Source: an uncultured Flavobacteriales bacterium
GTDB taxonomy: Bacteria; Bacteroidota; Bacteroidia; CAIKAF01
Direction: 5' to 3'
DNA length: 64,000 nucleotides
Assembly: GCA_903825395.1 (NCBI GenBank)
Contig: CAIKAF010000006.1
Coordinates: forward strand, 1-64,000
This document shows positions 38,907-44,906 of this stretch, one piece after another. Under the pieces are notes generated by a model that saw nothing but the letters and a program-made list of their open reading frames with translations, was not told where the DNA came from and searched no databases. The position numbers and the translations under genes were made by a program. Numbering within the stretch: position 1 is the stretch's first letter; the number at the start of each line of letters is the position of its first letter.

Positions 38907-39233
38907 ATGTCGAAAAAATCATTTAACCCCAGCCATGAAGAACTGATTAAGTACTTCAACTTACGGGTAGACGGCTCTACCTTGTACTTTACATCCAGCA
39001 TTGAAACCTGTCAAGCCATTGCTGCTGAAATGAAAAAAGCGGCCGACCAAATTGAGCGGCACCGAATCATTGTGGGCTCTCAAATCACCTTCAAATCAGA
39101 GGCCGATTTGGATGCCTTCTTGAAATTTGGGAAGGTACGCTATCATTTAATGGTTGATATGGCCAAGGACTATATGAATCAATTCTCCACCGGAAAAGAA
39201 AAAGGAGATTTACTTCCGCCCTCTCAGGCTTAA
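38907..39233 (+). CDS. Small hypothetical protein
   Basis: 108 residues, apparently cytosolic, no signal peptide or membrane segment. It has an N-terminal VDGSTLYFTSSIETCQAIAA, a charged helix (EMKKAADQIERHRII), then SQITFKSEADLDAFLKFG and a C-terminal helix ending in a basic/acidic tail. The mixed alpha/beta pattern looks like a real protein and the start (ATG after TTTTATTT) is clean. I do not recognise a family. It is followed 38 bp later by the sulfatase gene, which has its own promoter-like box. Confidence 0.65.
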   Translation: MSKKSFNPSHEELIKYFNLRVDGSTLYFTSSIETCQAIAAEMKKAADQIERHRIIVGSQITFKSEADLDAFLKFGKVRYHLMVDMAKDYMNQFSTGKEKGDLLPPSQA

Positions 39234-39271: not shown

Positions 39272-40864
39272 ATGAAAAGCAAATGGTTGTGGGCTGGTCT
39301 TGGGCTAATTCCCTTACTGGCCTTGGGATTTTGGCCTTTAACTTCCAGCAGGTGGATTCTAAATGCACCGACTCCAGAGGATTTGCAGCCTAAGGCCCGC
39401 TATCTTTCCGGCCTAAATCCGGCCTCAAGCACAGCCCCCAACATCATCATCATTCTAGCCGATGATTTAGGGAAATTTGATATTAGTTTGTTTGGAGATT
39501 CTGCCGTTCCAACACCCAACATTGATGCCATTGGGCGGCAAGGGGTATGCTTTGCCGATGGCTACACCTCCTCGCCCATTTGTGCCCCAAGCCGGGCGGC
39601 CATGCTCACCGGGCGCTCCAACAATCGATTTGGCATGGAGTTTCAACCCCAGGCCAGATATCCCTTAAATCGGCTGGAATACCTGGCCTTTAGGTATATT
39701 GTTCCTACCGACAATTGGAGAGTCGCCTCCCAGTTTGAATTTCCAGACCAAAGCTCTATGGAACAACAAGGTCTGCCTCAAACAGAAATTACCTTAGCCG
39801 AAGCCTTGGCCGCAGCGGGATACTCCACAGGAATGTTCGGAAAATGGCACCTTGGGCATGCAGAAGGCATGAAGCCCAATGAACGCGGATTTCAAGAGTT
39901 CTTCGGATTTTACGAGGCCTTTTCCCTCTTTGCCGATTCAAATGCGCCAGGAATTGTTAATGCCCCCACCGGAGAATTTTCAGATACGCACATTTGGAAA
40001 AAAGGTCGGACAGGAACCTGCGCTTTGCTGCACAATGGAAAACCGGTTGAAGAAAAAAACTATTTAACCTTTGCTATTGCCGACCGGGCTTGCCGATTTA
40101 TAAAAAAGAATTCAGCCAAACCCTTCTTTTTGTATCTGCCCTTCAACGCACCTCATACCCCATTTCAAGCTCCCGAAGCGCATTACAATAAAATTAAAAA
40201 CGAACCCAACCATGTTCGGCGGGTGTACAAATCCATGATTCTTGCCTTGGATGAAGCGGTAGGGCAAATCACCTCCACCTTAGAACAAGAAGGCCTTTTG
40301 GAAAACACCCTAATTTGGTTTGCCAGCGATAACGGGGCCGCGCTGTATGCACTAGCCGGCGATAATGCGCCCTACCGCGGCGGCAAACTCACCCATTATG
40401 AAGGAGGCATTAACGTTCCCTTCTTGCTGCAGTGGAAAGGCAAAATACAGCCCAGCACCTTTCCTCACCCAAGTTCCCTTACCGATGTCATGGTGACCTC
40501 TATGGCGGTTGCCGGCATTCCCCTACCGGCCGACCGAACATTTGATGGAGTAAACCTGCTGCCCTTTCTTGATTCTATTGCCGCACCCCATCCGGAATTG
40601 CGGTGGAAATCAGGCCCCAATCGAGCCCTACGTTCCGGTAGATACAAACTGATAATAAACGACCTATCTCAAACCGTTGAATTGTTTGACCTTTGGGAAG
40701 ACCCATCAGAATCCCACAACCTAATTGAAAAGCAGGCAGAACGGGGCGATGAAATGATGCGCAATCTGAACAACTGGATGCAAACCTTACCTGCTACCTT
40801 GTGGCCCGGGATTATGGATCATGGCATCGAATACAATGGAAAAACCTATTTCTTCAGGGTTTAA
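39272..40864 (+). CDS. Secreted type I sulfatase
   Basis: 530 residues with a signal peptide or N-terminal anchor (KSKWLWAGLGLIPLLALGFW). Sulfatase hallmarks: metal-binding IIIILADDLGKFDISLFG near residue 58, the formylglycine site SPICAPSRAAMLTGR (Cys104 in CxPSR), GMFGKWHLGH, and WFASDNGA near the C-terminal half. Cys104 must be converted to formylglycine for activity; a formylglycine-generating-enzyme-like gene overlaps its 3' end. It probably removes sulfate esters from a polysaccharide or small arylsulfate outside the cytosol. The substrate cannot be read from sequence. A TTG start 6 nt upstream (39266) is less likely. Confidence 0.9.
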   Translation: MKSKWLWAGLGLIPLLALGFWPLTSSRWILNAPTPEDLQPKARYLSGLNPASSTAPNIIIILADDLGKFDISLFGDSAVPTPNIDAIGRQGVCFADGYTSSPICAPSRAAMLTGRSNNRFGMEFQPQARYPLNRLEYLAFRYIVPTDNWRVASQFEFPDQSSMEQQGLPQTEITLAEALAAAGYSTGMFGKWHLGHAEGMKPNERGFQEFFGFYEAFSLFADSNAPGIVNAPTGEFSDTHIWKKGRTGTCALLHNGKPVEEKNYLTFAIADRACRFIKKNSAKPFFLYLPFNAPHTPFQAPEAHYNKIKNEPNHVRRVYKSMILALDEAVGQITSTLEQEGLLENTLIWFASDNGAALYALAGDNAPYRGGKLTHYEGGINVPFLLQWKGKIQPSTFPHPSSLTDVMVTSMAVAGIPLPADRTFDGVNLLPFLDSIAAPHPELRWKSGPNRALRSGRYKLIINDLSQTVELFDLWEDPSESHNLIEKQAERGDEMMRNLNNWMQTLPATLWPGIMDHGIEYNGKTYFFRV

Positions 40865-41594
40865 CATCGTTCTGCTGGTATTCTGGCTAACGATTGGTTG
40901 CCAAAACGAAGACGCAACCTTTATCGCTTTTGATGCCACTGAAAATACCGCTGCATTTCAACTGAAAACCACCGAGGTTCGAAATGCTGAATTTCAGGAA
41001 TTTGTACTTGCAACAGGACATAAAACCTGCGCAGAGATAGGGTTAACAGACCTACCTCCGGGCAGCTTTCGGTTTGTGGCCGATAGCGGAGGCATTTGTT
41101 TTGTACCCGGTTTATCGTGGAAGCAACCGGAAGCCGATGGGGTTCAGCCCCTAGATTGGGAAAACCTTCCGGTAGTCCATTTGTGCCGCAACGACATCCT
41201 GGCCTATTTAAAATGGAAAGGAGAGCGATTGCCCACCCTAAACGAATTTAAGCTGGCCATGATGCATGAACGGACAGCCGCCGAACAAAGCCGGCCACAT
41301 GGAAATACGTGGCAAGGACTTTTTCCCTGGCGCGATGTAGGGGTAGACGGATACCCCATGCGGCTTGCTCCTGTAGCTCAATACAATTCCATTGCAGGGA
41401 CATTTGACCTGATTGGAAATGCCTGGGAAATAGTGGAAGATTCTTGCCAAAATGGTTACCTGGCTGCAGGCGGTTCTTATTTGTGTTCTCCCGCTTGGTG
41501 CCGAGGCTATTTGACCGAATCGCCGCTGTGCATCGATCCCAATTTACCGTATGGACATGTTGGATTCAGAACAGCAAAAAACAACAGGCCATAA
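40836..41594 (+). CDS. Formylglycine-generating enzyme-like (SUMF1) lipoprotein
   Basis: 252 residues from the ATG at 40836; another ATG lies at 40821. The N-terminus has a lipoprotein-like signal, GFNIVLLVFWLTIGC. The SUMF1 fold is complete but compact: ERLPTLNEFKLAM, NTWQGLFPW, DGYPMRLAPVAQYN, FDLIGNAWEIVED, then GGSYLCSPAWCRGYL and GHVGFRTA. Cys217 and Cys222 (C-x4-C) match the spacing of the two catalytic cysteines of true formylglycine-generating enzymes (for example LCHxxYC), unlike gldJ in this window. It overlaps the sulfatase gene by 29 bp. The likely job is oxidation of the sulfatase active-site Cys, here apparently after export; this location is inferred. Confidence 0.8.
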   Translation: MEKPISSGFNIVLLVFWLTIGCQNEDATFIAFDATENTAAFQLKTTEVRNAEFQEFVLATGHKTCAEIGLTDLPPGSFRFVADSGGICFVPGLSWKQPEADGVQPLDWENLPVVHLCRNDILAYLKWKGERLPTLNEFKLAMMHERTAAEQSRPHGNTWQGLFPWRDVGVDGYPMRLAPVAQYNSIAGTFDLIGNAWEIVEDSCQNGYLAAGGSYLCSPAWCRGYLTESPLCIDPNLPYGHVGFRTAKNNRP

Positions 41595-44159: not shown

Positions 44160-44906
44160 ATGAAAAAACTTTTTACTTTTTCTTCAGCGCTAATGATGGC
44201 GGCTGTAGCATCTGCCCAGGTGACCATCACCTATCAGGTAGACATCACGGACTATTTGGCGAACGGAGCCACCTTAGCGGGAACGGGCATTCGTGCTGCC
44301 GGTAATTTCGGTGACAATGGTGCTGTTTTGGGTGGAACCACCACAGCAGTGGCCAACTGGGCTCCAACCGATGCGAATTCGGCCATGACCGATTTGGGAA
44401 ACAACATTTGGTCTATTACCGTTGATTATCCAGCTGGTTCAGTAGGTATGACTCAGAACTGGAAGTTTGTGAATGGAGATTGGGGAACCAACGAAGGCGC
44501 TGCAACCTTAGCAGATTGTGGTGTGGATGATGGCTTTGGTGGTATCAACCGGGCTTTTGAAATTCCTGCTGCAAGTGGCACCTACCGTTTTTGTTGGGAT
44601 GCTTGTTTTCAGTGCGATGGTTCTGAGCCTATGATGTCATTCCAGAGTGAGTTGGTAAAGGGCTTACGGGTTTATCCAAACCCAGCAGTTTCAGAAGCTC
44701 AGGTTTCGTTCTCTGCGGCTGGAGTAAACCAGGTTCAAGTTCGTTTGTTTGACTTATCTGGTCGTGAGATGGTCATCAATGAAGTAAGTGGCAATGGCAA
44801 TTTTGAAACTGTTTTGAATGTTTCAGGATTGAATTCTGGCATGTATGTATACCACATCAGCAACGGTGCTGAGGTATTGGCTACAGGTCGCCTACTGAAA
44901 AAATAA
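44160..44906 (+). CDS. Secreted protein with T9SS type A sorting domain
   Basis: 248 residues. Signal peptide MKKLFTFSSALMMAAVASAQ, then a ~145-residue beta-rich domain (VTITYQVDITDYLANG ... LGNNIWSITVDYPAGSVGM ... WKFVNGDWGTNEGA). It resembles the carbohydrate-binding or Ig-like modules found near Bacteroidota starch enzymes. The last 75 residues are a T9SS type A domain (LRVYPNPAVSEAQVSF ... GMYVYHISNGAEVLATGRLLKK). It is followed by a terminator and then a GH13 amylase with related N-terminal wording (LGNNIHRIVIDL). Role in glycan binding is inferred. Confidence 0.85.
   Translation: MKKLFTFSSALMMAAVASAQVTITYQVDITDYLANGATLAGTGIRAAGNFGDNGAVLGGTTTAVANWAPTDANSAMTDLGNNIWSITVDYPAGSVGMTQNWKFVNGDWGTNEGAATLADCGVDDGFGGINRAFEIPAASGTYRFCWDACFQCDGSEPMMSFQSELVKGLRVYPNPAVSEAQVSFSAAGVNQVQVRLFDLSGREMVINEVSGNGNFETVLNVSGLNSGMYVYHISNGAEVLATGRLLKK

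Follow-up and report, generated by a model that had tools for sequence, protein, structure and literature searches.

The window analysed here, a stretch of 64,000 nucleotides (nt) from an uncultured Flavobacteriales bacterium (GCA_903825395.1, contig CAIKAF010000006.1, positions 1-64,000, forward strand), carries an S1-type sulfatase gene that overlaps a gene for a short, SUMF1-like formylglycine-generating enzyme (FGE) with a lipoprotein-type N-terminus. The assembly comprises 2.6 Mb in 33 contigs, with an estimated completeness of 100%. Both genes lie on the plus strand. The sulfatase (530 residues, 39272..40864; PF00884, E 1.2e-59) starts at ATG 39272 and its stop codon ends at 40864; the FGE (252 residues, 40836..41594; PF03781, E 1.2e-25) starts at ATG 40836, with an alternative in-frame ATG at 40821, and its stop codon ends at 41594. 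The overlap, which had been noticed in an original prediction made from the letters alone, measures 29 nt and fits coupled expression of the two proteins. The coordinates and residue numbers of that prediction (Cys104, Cys217 and Cys222) were all correct on re-reading. Overlaps between such genes were seen in two families (gaps -10 to -41 nt), and sulfatases formed the largest cluster among the immediate neighbours of FGE genes (22/110).

The sulfatase and the FGE of the window

FGEs hold copper on two cysteines and use O2 to convert the cysteine of the CxPSR motif in an unfolded sulfatase; the human enzyme does so in the endoplasmic reticulum (ER). In the window sulfatase the motif reads ICAPSR and matches the pattern C/S-x-P-S/T-R within the PF00884 domain. 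Direct reading and numbering place CAPSR at 39581..39595, and formylglycine is expected to form at its Cys104. The closest solved relatives are kappa/iota-carrageenan (S1_19-like) sulfatases (best phmmer match in the PDB 6prm, 2.4e-70); no carrageenan gene cluster was seen among the immediate neighbour genes read around the sulfatase. Its N-terminus, MKSKWLWAGLGLIPLLALGFWP, has the character of an export signal or anchor, and a hydrophobic N-terminal signal was present on every intact sulfatase read in the taxonomic family. Several of these signals end directly before Q (ANA-Q, AWA-Q, AMA-Q), where cleavage is expected of Bacteroidetes signal peptidase I substrates under the Q-rule (PMC5837995).

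The neighbouring protein was proposed to be a true modifying enzyme, and its sequence has the signature of one. It scores 91 bits against PF03781 (cut-off 23.3), and among solved structures true FGEs match it best (5nxl/6s07, E 1.7e-21). The catalytic copper-site motif GGSYLCSPAWC (41469..41501) contains Cys217 (41484-41486) and Cys222 (41499-41501) at the C-x4-C spacing, and both cysteines are invariant when ten Bacteroidota FGEs are aligned, although several of these share only 32-33% identity with the window protein. The invariant core positions R131, N157, D171, N195, W197, E198 and S214 are likewise retained.

The protein is also short, as originally remarked: 252 residues (~250 in its genus) versus ~290-380 in other Bacteroidota members. 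The loss covers the first core strand region (IPGGxFxMG) and a loop preceding GGS. Comparison with a 98% identical relative gave 4 amino-acid-changing and 11 silent differences (dN/dS ~0.1; 0.0069/0.066), which indicates that the gene is under constraint. As judged from these sequences, the short form is a genus-level reduction under purifying selection. Five additional cysteines (65, 88, 117, 204 and 232) are conserved only in the closest relatives of the window protein; they could form lineage-specific disulphides, in keeping with an oxidising compartment, but this is only suggestive.

One sulfatase and one candidate maturase

The window sulfatase is the only PF00884 match in the genome. In Bacteroides sulfatases formylglycine is also generated by anSME, a radical-SAM sulfatase maturase that belongs to another family and relies on iron-sulfur radical chemistry; a profile search of the genome (TIGR03942) gave no match. 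All seven PF03781 proteins of the genome were read, and C-x4-C was found only in the window FGE. Since neither an anSME match nor another C-x4-C protein of this family was found, the window FGE is the sole recognisable maker of formylglycine, if the sulfatase carries this residue. Two of the other PF03781 proteins, which lack the catalytic cysteines, resemble the type IX secretion system (T9SS) proteins GldJ and GldK. The GldK-like one, a lipoprotein of the FGE fold, is encoded in the window itself (L004, 6669-7559), and the GldJ-like one (L003) on contig C29.

The same pairing was seen across the taxonomic family. Of its 16 genomes, 10 had a CxPSR sulfatase together with a C-x4-C FGE and the remaining 6 had neither, an all-or-none pattern with a chance of 1 in 8008 if kinship is ignored. 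PF00884 matches in G003 and G012 do not contain the CxPSR motif, and a match in G013, a congener of G012, was left unread. No anSME scored above the cut-off in any of the 16 genomes. One member of the genus (G006; loci L037, 5384-6097, and L169, 2865-4628) has kept the sulfatase and has a far more reduced FGE (~199 residues) on another contig; in this FGE C-x4-C is retained and the NxWQG region is gone.

These data bear on whether the short FGE is an enzyme at all. It might instead be an exported, non-catalytic protein of the FGE fold, comparable to GldK/PorK, that serves the sulfatase as a scaffold or chaperone. The missing N-terminal strand region and loop would suit such a role, and inactive exported proteins of this fold are known in the phylum (PorK/GldK/GldJ, PMC12421860), with GldJ- and GldK-like representatives in this genome. 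The latter, however, are devoid of the catalytic cysteines, whereas the window FGE has kept them together with all of the core residues named above, under a dN/dS of ~0.1. The sulfatase, moreover, retains the cysteine of CAPSR, for whose modification no other C-x4-C FGE or anSME was found. A purely structural role thus appears very unlikely.

N-terminal signals of FGEs in Bacteroidota and beyond

The N-terminus of the window FGE (40836..40901), MEKPISSGFNIVLLVFWLTIGC, is a hydrophobic stretch that terminates in Cys22 (40899-40901) within the lipobox-like sequence LTIGC. The lipoprotein-like character that had been ascribed to it is upheld by the alignment, in which Cys22 is invariant in 10/10 relatives, just as Cys217 and Cys222 are, despite N-termini that otherwise diverge; this is what would be expected of a lipobox. 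A possible surface-export signal following Cys22 (QNED) was considered and rejected, as by-eye reading found it not conserved in relatives.

To place this N-terminus in context, 394 Bacteroidota genomes were searched with an FGE profile, strong matches were fetched, proteins with C-x4-C were kept, and their N-termini were scored by one rule; 398 Pseudomonadota and 299 Bacillota genomes were treated by the same procedure. Four calls were changed by eye from no signal to signal (L076, L077, L157 and L166), two proteins were set aside (L111 and L168), and, solely for labelling the tree, six rows were moved from the other-signal class to the lipoprotein class. Of the classifiable Bacteroidota C-x4-C FGEs, 74/76 had an N-terminal signal, either of the lipoprotein type or of another type, compared with 11/32 from Pseudomonadota and Bacillota combined. 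As a false-positive control on real sequences, signals were scored in 0/16 classified proteins of the GGSH (Mycobacterium tuberculosis) type and in 0/4 Bacillota proteins. A maximum-likelihood tree with 111 proteins, built by a quick method and with some long branches, required only two changes of the exported or cytosolic label, which suggests that export is an old, clade-wide property. A compartment signature was also sought in the AYC/GFRC cysteine pair, with no useful difference, and a scan of viral contigs found only 7 relatives.

The two signal-less Bacteroidota proteins (L089 and L090) come from one genome (G137) and are of the GGSHLCAPNYC type, which resembles the M. tuberculosis enzyme. 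The same genome also encodes a lipoprotein FGE (L124), and the signal-less pair was possibly acquired by horizontal transfer, perhaps for cytosolic sulfatases. Several FGEs carry a short substrate-like motif between the signal and the catalytic core, C-x3-6-[IVL]-P-S/K/A-R (e.g. SCMQVPSR). It occurs in 11/111 rows, which are related, versus 2.6 in shuffles: in Bacteroidota L063, L064, L068, L071, L078, L119, L123, L129 and L130, and in Bacillota L136 and L137 (CCSASR and CCAASR). Such a segment could possibly act as a pseudosubstrate or in copper handling.

The original prediction had regarded an export signal as unusual for a bacterial FGE. This holds against the literature (PMC4505483) but not within the phylum, and some Pseudomonadota FGEs have signals too. 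Since nearly all Bacteroidota C-x4-C FGEs look exported, the signal is no oddity of the window locus; as far as these N-termini tell, FGE export is a phylum-wide trait of Bacteroidota, and it is probably real.

A different interpretation is that the N-terminus is an inefficient signal or an N-in anchor, and that the FGE works prior to export, either within the cytosol or on its side of the membrane, modifying Cys104 co-translationally ahead of Sec. The prokaryotic FGEs characterised so far are placed in the cytosol (PMC4505483), a co-translational encounter could be favoured by the overlapping genes, and one Bacteroidota genus has members with a hydrophobic N-terminus lacking the lipobox cysteine. 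An N-in anchor, however, needs no such cysteine, which is strictly conserved in the family of the window bacterium and present in most Bacteroidota members. The signals, furthermore, follow clades and are absent from the related M. tuberculosis-type and Bacillota FGEs. We consider action on the cytosolic side unlikely.

A proposed route of sulfatase activation

Because the FGE carries a lipoprotein-type export signal, activation of the sulfatase probably takes place outside the cytoplasm. Taken together, the gene pair and its motifs, the conserved N-terminal cysteine, the single sulfatase, the co-occurrence in the family and the phylum-wide signals make it likely that the overlapping genes specify an exported S1 sulfatase and a dedicated, aerobic, envelope-anchored FGE, lipidated at Cys22, which converts Cys104 after export and before folding. 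The FGE would be exported by Sec and lipidated to become a lipoprotein of the inner or outer membrane that faces the periplasm. The sulfatase would also exit through Sec, and its still unfolded CAPSR segment would be bound by the FGE during or after translocation. With copper held by Cys217 and Cys222 and with O2, the FGE would then oxidise Cys104, so that formylglycine is in place by the time the sulfatase folds.

Several points weigh against this proposal. The lipobox of the window FGE, TIGC, has an uncommon T at position -3. The survey relied on a home-made signal classifier with by-eye corrections, and the contrast of 74/76 with 11/32 (Fisher p 2e-12) was computed over rows that are phylogenetically non-independent. 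An AlphaFold2 model of the short FGE, made from a six-row alignment, reached a mean pLDDT of only 36.7. Finally, the supply of copper to an exported FGE in the periplasm is unexplained.

The window FGE shares with known aerobic FGEs (Streptomyces coelicolor, Thermomonospora curvata and human) the Pfam domain, the GGS-x2-C-x4-C copper site, the conserved core residues and a partner sulfatase of the formylglycine type. It differs from them in its lipoprotein-type signal and in a mature protein of ~230 residues that lacks the first core strand region. Like the human enzyme, it would work outside the cytosol. Compartment, anchoring and short form are what would be new on a known enzyme; the case finds good support in the comparisons and is apparently underappreciated. 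No description of a periplasmic or lipoprotein catalytic FGE was found in the open-access literature; Holder et al. (2015) state that prokaryotic FGE resides in the cytosol (PMC4505483), and the reading of Bacteroidota FGEs as exported contradicts this placement.

Exported bacterial proteins with the FGE fold and without catalytic cysteines have been described, namely OCTIN (PMC5915273) and PorK/GldK/GldJ (PMC12421860). PorK/GldK and GldJ are exported Bacteroidota lipoproteins, as the window FGE is predicted to be; unlike it, they are structural ring or track proteins of the T9SS without the cysteines (PMC12421860), and the window FGE has no large insertion. The Bacteroidetes glutaminyl cyclase PgQC offers a parallel, as it too is predicted to be a lipoprotein throughout most of the phylum and less so outside it (PMC5837995). 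Its fold and chemistry are unrelated, however, and its target is an N-terminal Gln rather than an internal Cys.

Among other genes of the window, an open reading frame of 108 residues without a Pfam match (38907-39233) directly precedes the sulfatase gene in the same orientation. The protein encoded at 44160-44906 is secreted; it carries a C-terminal sorting domain of the T9SS (PF18962) and matches an X25 pullulanase domain weakly, below cut-off.

For the phylum at large, we lean towards the view that in most Bacteroidota with an aerobic FGE sulfatase maturation is periplasmic, membrane-anchored and subsequent to Sec export, much as in the ER, and that the exported state is old. The T9SS proteins GldK/PorK and GldJ may have arisen from a stock of such lipoprotein FGEs. 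The copper and redox chemistry of bacterial FGE has so far been discussed on a cytosolic premise (PMC4505483). The present genome, in which a single sulfatase faces a single candidate maturase, offers a clean test case. If the proposal is true, marine Bacteroidota sulfatases that are co-expressed with a cytosolic FGE may not follow their native route, and for a phylum of major degraders of sulfated glycans it would need rethinking where and when sulfatases are activated, how copper is supplied and how the quality of activation is controlled.
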